Shown: positions 4,408 through 32,320 of the stretch, piece by piece
How the letters are laid out: each line of letters begins with the position of its first letter
Position numbering within the stretch: the stretch's first letter is position 1
NCBI GenBank assembly: GCA_003562775.1
Contig: PWTU01000297.1
Coordinates: 1 to 52,826, forward strand
Reading direction: 5' to 3'
From: Ignavibacteriales bacterium
GTDB lineage: Bacteria > Bacteroidota > Ignavibacteria > T3Sed10-11
DNA length: 52,826 bases
Notes under the pieces: model-generated
Databases searched by the model: none
The model's input: the letters and a program-made list of their open reading frames with translations, nothing else
Told to the model about the DNA's origin: nothing
Made by a program: the position numbers and the translations under genes

Positions 4408-4638
4408 TTATTTTCGTAAAATATATTTTGCTGCTTTTACGACAGACTCTTTTCGAACCCTGGCTGCATGAGTGTTTTGCTGTTGTATTTGTTCATACAA
4501 CTCCGTACGGTAAATTTTCACATCCTTCGGAGCTTCTATTCCTAATTTGATCTGGCCGTGTTCAATAGATACCACTTTGACAATTATATTGTCTCCAATG
4601 GTAATACTTTCTCCGGGTTTTCGCGTTAAAATTAGCAT
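4408..4638 (-). CDS. csrA: carbon storage regulator / translational regulator CsrA
   Basis: CsrA is a small RNA-binding dimer that represses translation by covering GGA motifs near ribosome binding sites. The 76-aa protein begins [12 protein letters not shown] and contains [13 protein letters not shown] and YRTELYEQI, the classic CsrA sequence. It lies 3 bp after fliW, its known protein antagonist. The pair typically couples flagellin level to flagellin translation. The flagellin gene itself is not in the window. Confidence 0.97.
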
Positions 4639-26578: not shown

Positions 26579-27871
26579 CTACCTCTTCAGATTTACTACC
26601 TCATTCAGTATTTCATCGCTCACCGTGATCACTCTCGCACCCGATTGGAATCCCCGCTGTGCGATTATCATACGGGTGAATTCTTCGGTTAAGTCGATAT
26701 TCGATTGCTCGAGTGCTCTTGCAATAATCTGTGAGTTGGATTGCGACTCATCGCCGGGTGAAATTATCGAGGGTGCACCTGAATTACCGGAGATATCGTA
26801 CAAATTATTCCCCGTTCTTATCAACCCGCCGGGATTATTAAATTCAGCAAGCATTATCTGTCCCAGAGTCATAATCGTGCCGTTGGAAAATGTTCCCTGT
26901 ATACGACCGCTCAGGTCGATATTCACATCGGTTAAGATGCCGGAGCTATAACCATCCTGTTCCCGGGGAGAGACGTTCGAAGCACCTTCACTCTGAGTCA
27001 TACCGGCGAATACTCCGGATTGACCGAGATTTATGTCAATTTGTTGATTTTGATCTGCACCATTTCCCGGGTCCCAATTGTTTAATGCCAATACTACGTC
27101 AGCTCCCGCTGGGATCGCCACCCCATTAACCGCTTCTAGTGTTCCATCATCACCAAATTCAACGGTATCACCAACTCCTCCTCCTCCGACTGTTACTCCA
27201 GCAATTTCAGCTTCCCAATTCCATGTATTATTCCCGGTTTTTTCAAATGTTACCGTCAAGGTATGTCTGTTGCCGAGCGAATCAAATATAGTTACTGAGG
27301 AGTTGATAGTTTCACCTACATCTGCAGCCGCATTCAGATTCCCGGCTAATTTCACCAATTCAGTTGCATTAGCCGGAGCTTTTCTATCAAGGGCAATCCG
27401 TATGTCCTCGAGAGCAGTGCCTTCAGGAATATTGCCGTTTGCATCTGCCAACTTACCTTGCAATATCGAGCCGCTGCCAGGATGAACAAGCATACCATTT
27501 GAATCCAGTGTAAATGCCCCGTTTCTTGTATATAATAAGTGCCCCTCTTTTTTAACAATAAACAACCCGTCTCCCTGGATGGCCAGATCGGTCGACTGTC
27601 CGGTTGTTTCTATATTCCCCTGCGAGAACAAGGTATCGATAGAACTTGCCGACATACCAAGCCCAACCTGCATTGGATTTACACCGCCGGTGCCGCCGTA
27701 TGGGAGCGTCGCATTGCGAAGCATCTGGGAAAACGATTCGCTGAAGGAAATACGACTCCCCTTATATCCCACGGTGTTTATATTTGCGATGTTGTTTCCG
27801 ATTACGTCCATCATCAACTGATGGTTACGCAAACCGGTAACACCCGATGAAAGAGATCGAATGAATGACAT
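26579..27871 (-). CDS. flgE: flagellar hook protein FlgE
   Basis: FlgE is the hook subunit. The 430-aa protein has the rod/hook N-terminus MSFIRSLSSGVTGLRNHQLMMDVIGNNIANINTVGYK, a middle domain with the FlgE D2-type stretch (about 150-330), and the C-terminus LTEEFTRMIIAQRGFQSGARVI. AAAAGGAGGG lies 4-5 nt before the ATG. Its leader carries a structured RNA motif shared only with fliK. Confidence 0.96.
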   Translation of the reverse strand: MSFIRSLSSGVTGLRNHQLMMDVIGNNIANINTVGYKGSRISFSESFSQMLRNATLPYGGTGGVNPMQVGLGMSASSIDTLFSQGNIETTGQSTDLAIQGDGLFIVKKEGHLLYTRNGAFTLDSNGMLVHPGSGSILQGKLADANGNIPEGTALEDIRIALDRKAPANATELVKLAGNLNAAADVGETINSSVTIFDSLGNRHTLTVTFEKTGNNTWNWEAEIAGVTVGGGGVGDTVEFGDDGTLEAVNGVAIPAGADVVLALNNWDPGNGADQNQQIDINLGQSGVFAGMTQSEGASNVSPREQDGYSSGILTDVNIDLSGRIQGTFSNGTIMTLGQIMLAEFNNPGGLIRTGNNLYDISGNSGAPSIISPGDESQSNSQIIARALEQSNIDLTEEFTRMIIAQRGFQSGARVITVSDEILNEVVNLKR

Positions 27872-27875
27872 AATA

Positions 27876-27885
27876 CCCTCCTTTT
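27876..27885 (-). promoter_or_regulatory. Shine-Dalgarno of flgE, complementary to its own leader
   Basis: AAAAGGAGGG on the minus strand lies just before the flgE ATG. Its GGAGGG core is a perfect complement of CCCTCC at 27937-27932, which overlaps the 3' arm of the leader motif helix P1. Pairing of the two would hide the ribosome site. Confidence 0.65.
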
Positions 27886-27903
27886 ATATGAATGATTTAC
27901 AAT

Positions 27904-27990
27904 GATCGAGCTTCATTCGTTCGGCTCGACCGGAGGGCTTCCGTTTCAGGTTTTTACTAATAATTATACCTGAATGAACGGGCCAGCCCC
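27904..27990 (-). promoter_or_regulatory. structured RNA motif in flgE leader (copy 1)
   Basis: Minus strand, 5' to 3'. GGGGCT (27990-27985) pairs with AGCCC (27939-27935) as P1. Inside P1, GGC is followed by a stem (CCGTT/AACGG, then TCAGGT/ACCTGA) and a single A. After a 3-nt linker, an 8-bp stem GGTCGAGC/GCTCGATC encloses a 12-nt loop that begins CGAACGA. The motif starts 9 nt after the previous gene and ends 33 nt before the flgE ATG. The fliK leader repeats the same layout. Confidence 0.7.
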
Positions 27991-27998
27991 TGTGTTTA

Positions 27999-28397
27999 TT
28001 ATTGTTTTTTATCTACTATTACTGCACTATCAATATTGGTAAAAACATTTTCATTCAGTTGTTCACCGCCTATTGCCGTTACCACTGTTTTATTTTTTAT
28101 ATTCACGATAAATGCAAGGTCTCGCAAAAGTATGAGCGAATCCCGCGCACCTTTTGTCTCTGCTTTTTCGACGGCGCTTCTTAGTTGTACCTTCTCCGTT
28201 TCACTTAATTTGATGCTTCGCTCGTCAAGGCGTTGCTGTGCATGTTTGGAGAACTTAATCTGCTCCAGTTCCTTGCGAAATACCGCTTCAAAAGAACGGT
28301 CGTGAGGCAGCTTTACGGAGGTTCGCTCCTTTAACGAGTCAACCCCGTGCACCGGTACAAACGGTATCTTTACTCCATTGACAATGTTTTCAGCCAT
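27999..28397 (-). CDS. flagellar operon protein (TIGR02530 type)
   Basis: This 132-aa protein contains KFSKHAQQRLDERSIKLSE and KGARDSLILLRDLAFIVNIKNKTVVTAI, which match the conserved flagellar operon protein family TIGR02530. Members lie between flgD and flgE in many non-enteric bacteria, exactly as here. The function is unknown. It starts 3 bp after flgD ends. Confidence 0.9.
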   Translation of the reverse strand: MAENIVNGVKIPFVPVHGVDSLKERTSVKLPHDRSFEAVFRKELEQIKFSKHAQQRLDERSIKLSETEKVQLRSAVEKAETKGARDSLILLRDLAFIVNIKNKTVVTAIGGEQLNENVFTNIDSAVIVDKKQ

Positions 28398-28400
28398 GAT

Positions 28401-29069
28401 CTATCCCTCCAGAATTTCCCGAATATTCGACAACGCTATCTCGACGCCGCCAATGATAAAGAATGTTCCGTTGTCCTTGAACCGCACTCCTTCAACCTTA
28501 CCGAGAATGTATTGTTCAACCGAAATTTCGGCGCCGCCTTTATCTTTGGCTTCAACCGTGAATGAATATTTCCCTTTGTCCAATTTATGATTATTTTCAT
28601 TCGTCCCGTCCCACGTTATAGCATTCTCACCTTTACTCCCATCTCCGTTCAATGTTTTTACAAGGTTTCCCATTTCATCATACACTTTGACGACTACTGT
28701 ATCCGCCGAGTTCGCCAGGTTATACCCTAACGTGACGTCGCCTTCACCGGTATAGAAAAACCTATCGGCGCTTGCGCGGACTTCTTTGCCGATAAATGTC
28801 GTTGCAAGAGCGTTGTTGATGGATTGAGTCAAAAGGTAATTCGCATCCAAACTGAACATAAGGTTCGAGTTGATATTCGACAACTGCTCAACCGAACTGA
28901 AATGAGCAAGTTGAGCGGCAAACTCCGTTCCCTCAAGCGGGCTTAACGGATCCTGATGACGCAATTGCATGACAAGCAGCTTTAAAAAGTCATCTTTATC
29001 CAGTATGCCGCCGGGTTTTCCCGCATCGGGAAGTGAGAATTCATCTGATTGTACTCCTGGTATCATCAT
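28401..29069 (-). CDS. flgD: hook cap / hook assembly protein FlgD
   Basis: FlgD caps the growing hook. The 222-aa protein has the N-terminal signature LDKDDFLKLLVMQLRHQDPLSPLEGTEFAAQLAHFSSVEQL, a central FlgD-Ig-like and Tudor-like part, and the C-terminus GVRFKDNGTFFIIGGVEIALSNIREI. It lies between fliK and the TIGR02530 gene. Confidence 0.95.
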   Translation of the reverse strand: MMIPGVQSDEFSLPDAGKPGGILDKDDFLKLLVMQLRHQDPLSPLEGTEFAAQLAHFSSVEQLSNINSNLMFSLDANYLLTQSINNALATTFIGKEVRASADRFFYTGEGDVTLGYNLANSADTVVVKVYDEMGNLVKTLNGDGSKGENAITWDGTNENNHKLDKGKYSFTVEAKDKGGAEISVEQYILGKVEGVRFKDNGTFFIIGGVEIALSNIREILEG

Positions 29070-29083
29070 AGTAGTACCCTTTA

Positions 29084-32000
29084 CTATAGGATTAAATCGA
29101 TTGTATTGTACTCAAAAAATCTTTGCGTCCGTTTTGCTGTTTCAGGTTCGTTTTCCTCTCTTTTTCTTCCCTGATATCTTGAATGCCAGCCGGGTTGTTC
29201 ACCTCTTTCCTCTGCCTGATTCGATTGGCCCCCCGTTAAAATATCAAAGCGCTGCACTTCTATTCCGCGCGCAATAAGCGCTTCCCGTAATTGCGGGAGC
29301 TGTCCCTCAATCATCGCTTTAACAGCTGCATTAGTGACATCGACCTTCGCGGTCATTTTTCCGTTTTCCATCCTCATTTTAATAAAAAGTTCGCCCAGAT
29401 ATTCGGGCTTTAACCGGAACCGGATTTCCGATATATCATTCTGCATTCGCAGGGATACTGCTTTTGCAATATCCTCGATTGCCTGCTTTGGAAATTCGGT
29501 AAATGATGTCGTTTGTCCGGTCCCCTGCTTCGCCGGCGTTCCGCTCATCGTCGTCGTTGTTATATTTTGATGCGACGCCTCGGCTAATTTAAACTGAAAT
29601 TCCTTTGAATTTCCTTCCTGCTTTGTGAGATAATTAGTGTTCGGAGCTAAATCCGGCTGCATATTTCTTCCATCACCGGTGTGGCGCCCTTGTCCTTCGT
29701 TGTTCATATCGGACCGGGCAGACCGGAGAGGTGTTCCATCGATAGTATATGTTCTCCCGGTCATCTCCTGCCGTAAATCGGATCCCTGTCGTTCAATGTT
29801 TGGCTTCGGATTTATATGGTGTGAATTTAAATTGTTGTCGTTTTGCCGTATTGCTTGTTGAGTATCACTGTTCCTGATTTGCGTTGAAAAATTCCGCTCG
29901 GGTATTATGTTTTCCACATGATTTTTTTGAAGGGATACCGGTCTCGTGACGGTCTTCTCACTATCTATGACAGGTTCGAGAGACGGTCTTGCTGCATTCA
30001 CTGCTCCCTTTTCTACCTGAACAGGTTGTTCTCTTGCTATGATCGGATTATTTTCCTGCAATACGCGTATTTTATCGGGACCCGGCTTTTGGCTTGTTAT
30101 GTTTTCCATGCTCCTTGTAATTTGCAAACCTTGTAAATCCCGTGAAAGTGTTTGCAACTTCACATCAACCTGCGTCTTCCCCTGGCCGGAATTTTGATTT
30201 GAACCGGTTGTTGAAAAAGGATTTGCCGGTTCACTTCTTAGGGTTTGCACCATTCCCGGGCGGGTACTTTTTCCGATCGGCGGATGCACATTGTTCACAG
30301 CACGTTCACTGCCTGTTTGATTATTAAATTGTTGTCCGATGGTTCGTATTTCCGTCATTACACCTGTATACCCGTTATTACTCTGCACCCGGCTTGAATT
30401 AACTTCCGGATTTGGGGTTCCTTGCACTCCAAACAAATTCCGGGTGATATTCGGTATCGGTCTGTTCATCCTATTAAAAACTTCATTGCGATGCAACGTT
30501 GAATCGTTTACCGGTACACGGGCAGGTGTATCATTCACCCTTTCATTACCTTGGATGGCTTTTGCAGTAAATATACGCGGTACCTGTTCATTCTTTACCG
30601 ATTGATGTTCAAGTACATTCGATTGATGTAATCCTCGGAAAGCAGGCGCCTGTTCCGCTTGACCGGTTTCTGTCTGTCCGATAACTTGTGTACCTGTTAT
30701 TACTCTGGAATCGTTTGAAGAAATATAAGATTGATTAGTATTCATTTCCCTATTCGGAGTAATTTGTATTCCGAGTAAGTTCCGGGAAAGATTGGCTATT
30801 TGTCTATATACCAGGGCATTATTCTCCCTGTGGTTTAAGAATAAATCGATTGCCGGCATACGAACGGGTGTTTCATGTACACTATTACTGCTGCGGGTCG
30901 TTTTGGCAACCGGTATATACGGTACCGGATTACCCTTTTCGGACGACACTATTCCGCGGCCCGGCTCCTGTACTTTTGGAGGATACATTCCGACGAGATT
31001 CGATGGCGGATTCACCTCAGTATTGAATCTCATCCCAATGGATCGTAATTCTGCGGTTAATCCTGCATTGATTTTATTATTTGTAGATTGGACAATATGA
31101 TTATCCGTGCTTTTATACGAAAGGGTTGATGCGTGCGTATTTACCCGAACATTACTTTCACTCCGGTTCTGTATGAGGTCTGCTACAAGTATACGAGCGG
31201 GAGTATCACTCACTTTTTTATTGCTATCCTTTGTTTTACCAAGCAGCATATCCGGCGCCTGGTCGTTCTTTACCGCCGCCGGCATTACACCGGGTAGTTT
31301 CTGATGTACTTTCGGTGAATGCTCCCCTGCAGGAACCGACGTATGATTAGATTGACTATTTGATGCCTGTACGATAGAATGTTGACTTGCTCCGGAATTC
31401 AATATACGGCCGGGGACTTGACTCATTTTATTATCACTTTGAGCTGTCTGTGAACCTAACGGATTGGTCGCCGGTTCATTTTGTCTATGCTTTAGTCCGG
31501 CATCTAATATTAGATCGGCGGCCAATCTATGGTTTTTACTATCCGTACTCCGACTATCGACTTGTATTCCTTCACCTCTGATCGCAGAATTCTTATCTCC
31601 GACCTCTGACCTCTGACCTCCGATCTCCGACCTCTGAACTCCAACCTCTGACCTCTGCCCTCCGACCTCCGACCTCTGACCTCCGACCTCTGACCTCTGA
31701 CCTCTGACATCTGACATCTGACCTCCGACCTCCGACCTCTGAACTCCGACCTCCGACCTCTGATCTCTGACCTCTGACCTCTGACCTCCGACCTCTGACC
31801 TCTGACCTCCGACCTCTAACCTTTGACCTTCAACCCCCGACTTTTGTTCTCCACTCTCCGCACGATTACTCATTTGTTCTTTCAGAGTCCCACCATCCCA
31901 TATCATACCATTATTATAAAACATAGAACTACGCGGTGACACAACGCCTATGTGTGATATCTGAGACGCATTATTTTCTCCTTCACTGATTTCGACTCCC

Positions 32001-32161
32001 TCCGGACGCACCAGATCAGTTTTGCCGGCAGCTTTCAGGAGACTTAACAAATTGTTGAAAAATGAACCTGATCGCCCGGCATCTGCTCCAATACCAACCT
32101 GTCTGGATGAAATCGTTCCACTTTGTATATTTTCAATTGCTGCAATAATGCGATGCATCAT
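29084..32161 (-). CDS. fliK: flagellar hook-length control protein FliK (very long, repeat-rich)
   Basis: FliK measures hook length and triggers the FlhB switch. From the ATG at 32161 it has about 1025 aa, more than twice the enteric protein (about 405). The C-terminal Flg_hook domain (about the last 140 residues) has FRLKPEYLGELFIKMRMENGKMTAKVDV and LPQLREALIARGIEVQRFDILTGG. Residues about 106-187 come from a heptanucleotide array (QRSEVGG-type repeats). A low-complexity middle follows, with three similar blocks about 110 residues apart (DTPARILVADL, ETPVRMPAIDL, DTPARVPVND). AAAGGA lies 8 nt before this ATG. The longer reading begins with TTG and overlaps the leader. Confidence 0.9.
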   Translation of the reverse strand: MMHRIIAAIENIQSGTISSRQVGIGADAGRSGSFFNNLLSLLKAAGKTDLVRPEGVEISEGENNASQISHIGVVSPRSSMFYNNGMIWDGGTLKEQMSNRAESGEQKSGVEGQRLEVGGQRSEVGGQRSEVRDQRSEVGVQRSEVGGQMSDVRGQRSEVGGQRSEVGGQRSEVGVQRSEIGGQRSEVGDKNSAIRGEGIQVDSRSTDSKNHRLAADLILDAGLKHRQNEPATNPLGSQTAQSDNKMSQVPGRILNSGASQHSIVQASNSQSNHTSVPAGEHSPKVHQKLPGVMPAAVKNDQAPDMLLGKTKDSNKKVSDTPARILVADLIQNRSESNVRVNTHASTLSYKSTDNHIVQSTNNKINAGLTAELRSIGMRFNTEVNPPSNLVGMYPPKVQEPGRGIVSSEKGNPVPYIPVAKTTRSSNSVHETPVRMPAIDLFLNHRENNALVYRQIANLSRNLLGIQITPNREMNTNQSYISSNDSRVITGTQVIGQTETGQAEQAPAFRGLHQSNVLEHQSVKNEQVPRIFTAKAIQGNERVNDTPARVPVNDSTLHRNEVFNRMNRPIPNITRNLFGVQGTPNPEVNSSRVQSNNGYTGVMTEIRTIGQQFNNQTGSERAVNNVHPPIGKSTRPGMVQTLRSEPANPFSTTGSNQNSGQGKTQVDVKLQTLSRDLQGLQITRSMENITSQKPGPDKIRVLQENNPIIAREQPVQVEKGAVNAARPSLEPVIDSEKTVTRPVSLQKNHVENIIPERNFSTQIRNSDTQQAIRQNDNNLNSHHINPKPNIERQGSDLRQEMTGRTYTIDGTPLRSARSDMNNEGQGRHTGDGRNMQPDLAPNTNYLTKQEGNSKEFQFKLAEASHQNITTTTMSGTPAKQGTGQTTSFTEFPKQAIEDIAKAVSLRMQNDISEIRFRLKPEYLGELFIKMRMENGKMTAKVDVTNAAVKAMIEGQLPQLREALIARGIEVQRFDILTGGQSNQAEERGEQPGWHSRYQGRKREENEPETAKRTQRFFEYNTIDLIL
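30500..31230 (-). repeat. imperfect ~330-bp tandem repeats within fliK
   Basis: Three related protein blocks occur at about 112-residue spacing: KVSDTPARILVADL, SVHETPVRMPAIDL and RVNDTPARVPVND. They have similar flanks such as VKNDQAP/VKNEQVP and ELRSIGMRFN/EIRTIGQQFN. They mark an old internal duplication that lengthened the FliK ruler. Confidence 0.6.
31601..31845 (-). repeat. (GACCTCY)n heptanucleotide tandem repeat inside fliK
   Basis: Counting from 31601 on the plus strand gives 31 consecutive 7-bp units close to GACCTCT or GACCTCC up to 31817. Four decayed units extend to 31845. Because 7 is not a multiple of 3, gain or loss of one unit changes the reading frame of fliK. The array itself stays open in all three frames and always encodes the same QRSEVGG-like cycle. 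An alternative minus-strand frame leaves the array and reaches a stop at 31510. Confidence 0.92.
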
Positions 32162-32169
32162 ATTGACGT

Positions 32170-32175
32170 TCCTTT
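32170..32175 (-). promoter_or_regulatory. Shine-Dalgarno of fliK, complementary to the leader
   Basis: AAAGGA lies 8 nt before the fliK ATG at 32161. Its complement TCCTTT lies at 32237-32232, directly 3' of the leader motif's last stem. The stretch GGACAAAGGAACGTC also puts the GGA in a small GAC/GTC hairpin loop, which resembles a CsrA target. The CsrA idea is inference. Confidence 0.5.
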
Positions 32176-32238
32176 GTCCAGAATTCAATCGTCCAATGTG
32201 ACGTTGCTTTATTTTAATAATACATCTGATGAAAGGAC

Positions 32239-32306
32239 GGTAAGCGTCTGTCGTTCAGCTTACCAAAGCGGGCTTCCTCTGAATGTTTTCGGAGAGGGCC
32301 AGCCCC
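32239..32306 (-). promoter_or_regulatory. structured RNA motif in fliK leader (copy 2)
   Basis: Minus strand, 5' to 3'. GGGGCT (32306-32301) pairs with AGCCC (32274-32270) as P1. Inside it are GGC, a stem CCTCT/AGAGG, and one A. After a 5-nt linker, a 7-bp stem GGTAAGC/GCTTACC encloses a 12-nt loop beginning TGAACGA. The conserved parts are identical to the flgE copy, while the stems differ in sequence but keep pairing. It starts 15 nt after the motE-like gene and ends 77 nt before the fliK ATG. Confidence 0.7.
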
Positions 32307-32320
32307 ATCATTATTCCGTT

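Follow-up and report, generated by a model that had tools for sequence, protein, structure and literature searches.

A conserved two-hairpin leader RNA of flgE and other flagellar axial-protein genes, and TIGR02530 as its candidate partner

How bacteria keep the synthesis of hook and rod proteins in step with assembly is understood in only a few model species. Among described systems, FliW-CsrA-hag in Bacillus and CsrA-FliW-flaA in Campylobacter regulate an exported flagellar protein after transcription; among structured RNAs, the Termite-flg RNA (RF01729) is presumably linked, as its name implies, to flagellar genes. The latter has been reported from termite hind gut only, in a paper whose main text makes no mention of flagella (Weinberg 2010, PMC2864571), and at relaxed thresholds it matches neither the window (here, the whole stretch of 52,826 nucleotides analysed) nor its relatives. 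The present analysis describes an uncatalogued RNA mark that messages for exported flagellar proteins carry in several phyla. It also points to a specific partner candidate, the small conserved protein TIGR02530, known by name only as a flagellar biosynthesis family; the RNA and the protein are both amenable to study in common laboratory hosts. The reading favoured here, to which we give a probability of about 0.5, is that of a protein-responsive translational leader of flagellar axial-protein genes, having TIGR02530 as its likely partner.

The P1-P2 RNA and its distribution

The flgE leader of the window, bounded on the minus strand by the TIGR02530 stop codon (27999-28001) and the flgE ATG (27871), contains two hairpins (Table 1) which recur in those genomes of the same class whose flgE leaders were read out. 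In P1, a GG(A/C/U) bulge facing a single purine interrupts a GC-rich helix, which is capped by the variable hairpin P1b; P2, usually placed a few nucleotides 3' of P1, carries a 12-nt loop of the form n-GA-nn-GA-nn-GA-n, and both elements are found in the window. Among 113 leaders, the bulge reads GGA in 90, GGC in 17 and GGU in 6, while each of the six G/A positions of the P2 loop is retained in 106-111.

Table 1. Features of the flgE leader and of neighbouring and related genes in the window
Feature	Position	Strand	Remarks
flgE leader RNA core (P1 + P2 motif)	27903..27993	-	model R1 match, 41.4 bits
P1 5' arm GGGGCU	27985..27990	-	pairs with 27939-27934; homologous pairs co-vary, 101 sequences
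Conserved GGC bulge in P1	27982..27984	-	GGA/GGC/GGU in relatives
P1b hairpin	27941..27981	-	CCGUU/AACGG = 27981-27977 with 27945-27941; apical part variable
P1 3' arm AGCCCU	27934..27939	-	pairs with P1 5' arm
Anti-Shine-Dalgarno CCCUCC	27932..27937	-	overlaps P1 3' arm
P2 hairpin	27904..27931	-	stem 27931-27924 with 27911-27904; stem covariation
P2 12-nt loop CGAACGAAUGAA	27923-27912	-	GA..GA..GA near-invariant in 113 leaders
flgE Shine-Dalgarno GGAGGG	27876..27881	-	complement of CCCUCC
flgE (hook protein)	26579..27871	-	gene 3' of the leader
TIGR02530 (flg_new) gene, candidate RNA-binding partner	27999..28397	-	110.2 bits, above 83.2 cut-off
Second motif copy, before fliK	32237..32309	-	R1 36.5 bits, E 1.2e-6
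fliK (PF02120)	29084..32188	-	likelier start ATG 32161 after AAAGGAACG
flgD (hook cap)	28401..29069	-	flagellar gene of the window
csrA	4480-4638	-	encoded in the window

Aligning all leaders directly with MAFFT put the P1 3' arm out of register, so a covariance model (R1) was built starting from 12 well-aligned leaders; in the window it picks up the flgE leader and, before fliK, a further copy of the motif. When 101 matches are aligned, pairs are formed in 94% of cells against 70% after shuffling (0/500 shuffles), both sides change in 17 of the 18 pairs, and the covariation score is 0.61 versus 0.18; this alignment was itself fitted to R1, and the same helices are obtained from two MAFFT alignments not fitted to the model (A2 and A6, the latter with an RNAalifold prediction). 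That the P1-P2 family is real can be regarded as virtually certain. Searched against Rfam 15, no copy of the motif reaches the gathering score of any family, and relaxed thresholds (up to E 5-10) return only chance hits elsewhere; the RNA is thus uncatalogued in this collection. A flagellar motif is likewise absent from the main texts of three papers reporting newly discovered structured RNAs of bacteria, with the proviso that the 2017 paper on 224 motifs lay outside that comparison, so that a prior description there is possible.

R1 finds matches in 95 of 391 genomes from the window's class, in two genomes of another class of the same phylum (Bacteroidota), in 130 of 199 genomes of a Bacillota phylum (that of a Thermosediminibacteraceae MAG) and in 25 of 39 genomes of a third phylum; judged from these matches, the motif spans at least three bacterial phyla. 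Record titles include Ignavibacteriae, Chlorobi, Kryptonia and Melioribacteraceae, finer taxonomy not being claimed. A flagellar axial or hook-length gene lies directly downstream in 125 of 128 distinct instances (flgE in 112, flgG in 10, flagellin in 2 and fliK in 1; flgE and fliK in the window), the remaining three representing other genes or chance; flgE and flgG were told apart by an automatic and approximate rule; in L110, for instance, the motif precedes a FlgG-type ORF 276 nt downstream. The alignment and the gene context together show a covarying P1-P2 core, conserved in several phyla, before flgE and sometimes before flgG, fliK or flagellin.

Some individual loci deserve mention. The flagellin copies (L163, 302-361; L165, 294-350) stand directly before the gene in two Ignavibacteria-class genomes which also have a flgE copy. 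In L167 (1262-1319) the motif precedes an ORF that is not recognisably flagellar (MLLGLLEKVTKNHMD...), possibly a decayed or replaced gene, and the R1 matches in L048 and in L105 (341-409) were taken as chance, with E about 0.5-1. Flagella are patchy within the window's genus; in four of its genomes (G001, G002, G003 and G005) flgE, TIGR02530 and csrA were not found, some of these genomes being incomplete. The fliK frame of the window harbours at 31597-31829 a 21-bp tandem repeat (11 copies, each unit made of three 7-bp units), which encodes RSEVGGQ-like repeats in the middle region of FliK.

Pairing between the leader and the ribosome-binding site

A preliminary description of this locus had pointed out that CCCUCC is a perfect complement of the flgE Shine-Dalgarno (SD) sequence GGAGGG and that it shares bases with the P1 3' arm. 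Both observations hold: six Watson-Crick pairs can be formed, to which G27938-U27875 may add a seventh, GGAGGG ends 4 nt upstream of the flgE ATG, and the pairing is mutually exclusive with P1. By itself the complementarity is only mildly unusual, as 2.4% of the sequences obtained by dinucleotide shuffling of the 117-nt leader contain CCCUCC; P1, on the other hand, is beyond chance because it is conserved in other phyla with compensatory changes. The two folds computed for the window leader with ViennaRNA are nearly equal in energy (-35.4 kcal/mol for the anti-SD fold, -35.3 with P1 forced, -34.5 with P1, P1b and P2 all forced), the pairing probability between the SD and CCCUCC being 0.59. In other leaders the computed folds usually prefer P1, by about 3-4 kcal/mol.

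Among the flgE leaders of Ignavibacteria, 18 have both CCCUC(C/U) within the P1 3' arm and GGAGGG as SD, 22 have neither and 7 are discordant (Fisher p 6e-7, phylogeny ignored), and the pairing of each P1 3' arm with its own SD amounts to 13.6 versus 12.5 +- 0.24 when permuted (0/5000, phylogeny again ignored). The site is the P1 3' arm in many Ignavibacteria and the P1b 5' arm in Bacillota, where it reads GACCUC and faces a GAGGUC SD: both elements occur in 30 leaders, neither in 18, and 6 are discordant (p 6e-9, phylogeny ignored); own-SD pairing in Bacillota flgE leaders is 14.9 versus 14.3 +- 0.18 permuted (p 0.0008, with the same disregard of phylogeny), and GAGGUC is found in 25 of 48 flgE SDs against 3 of 78 SDs of other ORFs at the same loci. 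Unusual SDs are accompanied by matching arms, namely GAAGGGG/CCCCUUC in L173, GGGGGU/GCCCCC in L004 and L169, and UUGGAGG with a CCUCCAA arm in L008, and likewise in L141, L149 and L096. In the window's clade, an exclusive alternative pairing that covers the SD is therefore kept with compensatory change, and anti-SD control of flgE translation initiation is there the probable interpretation.

This pairing is not general. In the third phylum it is weak in most of 12 leaders, the GACCUC/GAGGUC pair appearing in L217 only; in the window's own fliK copy at most five pairs connect the P1 region with the SD, a six-pair match lying further downstream. This distribution makes it plausible that the switch is a clade-specific output of a more conserved core. 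The simple on/off model advanced in the preliminary description, in which the SD is free when P1 forms and covered when P1 opens, consequently survives only in part: it agrees with the co-variation found within clades and fails to accommodate the loci where the pairing is weak, and the most widely conserved features, the P1 bulge and the P2 loop, play no role in it.

A switch of this kind acting alone, with no dedicated trans factor and coupled either to temperature or to the ribosomes that finish translating TIGR02530, would account for the near-equal energies in the window, for the anti-SD co-variation and for a TIGR02530 stop codon that overlaps or abuts P1; it is nonetheless unlikely, since it leaves the near-invariant loop and bulge unexplained, the anti-SD is weak in whole clades, and no TIGR02530 gene was found just upstream of the flgG, fliK and flagellin copies. 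Equally unlikely is a role of the motif beyond initiation, whether in inter-cistron stability or processing or in targeting of the mRNA to the flagellar export apparatus. The products of the motif-bearing genes are exported via the flagellar type III apparatus, as such targeting would lead one to expect, but the co-variation with the SD in two clades indicates translation initiation.

TIGR02530 as candidate partner

The distribution of the motif follows that of TIGR02530. In the sample of 199 Bacillota genomes, FlgE/F/G are present in 172, TIGR02530 in 147 and the motif in 130; all 130 motif-positive genomes contain TIGR02530, and none of the 25 flagellated TIGR02530-negative genomes has the motif (Fisher p 3e-19, phylogeny ignored). 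Where TIGR02530-positive genomes were missed by R1, the readable leaders carry, as judged by eye, degenerate copies of P1 and P2; the readable leaders of TIGR02530-negative genomes (nine of the ten fetched, also judged by eye) contain no motif. Of 99 relatives in the window's class, 32 have TIGR02530, these being in essence the relatives with flagella; in the third phylum it lies upstream of flgE in 12 of 12 loci examined, and it is absent from 14 well-known control genomes, E. coli and B. subtilis among them. Since TIGR02530 adjoins flgE, shared inheritance of one locus could explain part of this co-occurrence. Taken together, the phyletic pattern and the gene order make TIGR02530 a serious candidate for the RNA's partner, with chances slightly short of even.

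The median gap between the TIGR02530 stop codon and the motif is -3 nt in Bacillota and +13 in Ignavibacteria; in Bacillota loci such as L092 and L121 the stop codon falls inside or at the P1 5' arm, so that a terminating ribosome would cover P1.

As for the protein itself, a literature search found no paper dealing with TIGR02530. In its AlphaFold model (pLDDT 78) the ordered part spans residues 36-128, and a structural comparison with VIA-align is mostly topped by RelE/ParE-type chains, at Z values of 4.5-5.9 that are compatible with chance (secure from 8). Foldseek returned nothing significant for the model (E 0.4 or worse), and a profile search against the sequences of solved structures gave nothing meaningful. 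PF14076 (DUF4258), a family which belongs to the RelE/ParE superfamily (PMC11980606), matches TIGR02530 weakly and below its cut-off (E 0.008). A RelE-like alpha-alpha-beta fold is thus weakly suggested by these predictions.

The tie with TIGR02530 bears also on two further readings. A small-molecule riboswitch class, with c-di-GMP as the obvious candidate in view of its control of flagella, would fit a compact conserved core with two conserved unpaired elements placed before genes of one process; it is quite unlikely, given that no match to c-di-GMP or other riboswitch families exists in Rfam 15, that the motif sits before individual genes inside operons, and that a metabolite sensor would not be expected to be so strictly tied to TIGR02530. 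Very unlikely is also a site of the CsrA type, known from the hag/FliW/CsrA system; both the phyletic pattern and the sequences led to the rejection of CsrA as partner. The window and the flagellated relatives do encode CsrA and most P1 bulges read GGA, but 23 of 113 leaders have GGC or GGU as the bulge (in the window GGC, rather than the unpaired or hairpin-loop GGA of a CsrA leader), three motifs (L005, L033 and L034) have no GGA at all, and 18 of the 25 flagellated TIGR02530-negative Bacillota genomes have CsrA yet no motif. Within the window's class, CsrA is restricted to about the same genomes as flagella.

Proposed mechanism and comparison with known systems

In the protein-responsive leader favoured here, a cis-acting RNA would head the genes of flagellar axial proteins, its P1-P2 core serving as the receptor of a factor acting in trans; the likeliest such factor is the TIGR02530 protein, whose gene immediately precedes flgE. 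In the window and its clade, formation of P1, for example upon binding, would leave the SD free; opening of P1 would allow CCCUCC of the 3' arm to mask the SD, and flgE translation would drop. The masking role would be taken in Bacillota by the P1b 5' arm. The expected outcome is that synthesis of the exported rod, hook and filament proteins is matched to the assembly stage. A more ambitious version, in which a RelE-fold TIGR02530, a toxin turned regulator, reads the two-hairpin mark on rod, hook, ruler and filament mRNAs and thereby couples synthesis to export as a multi-phylum translational checkpoint, is somewhat unlikely.

The likeness of TIGR02530 to the RelE/ParE (BECR) toxin superfamily and to DUF4258 is weak in both sequence and predicted fold; TIGR02530 differs in being a flagellar-operon gene, for which the present analysis saw no sign of RNase activity or of a partner antitoxin. 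With the FliW-CsrA systems the proposed leader would share the post-transcriptional control of exported flagellar proteins; unlike them, the present motif has no strict GGA requirement and tracks TIGR02530 instead of CsrA. The ribosomal-protein autoregulatory leaders offer a further analogy, that of a structured leader lying by the gene of a candidate RNA-binding protein and, if the proposed function holds, controlling initiation; here, by contrast, the targets are flagellar and the candidate protein is non-ribosomal.
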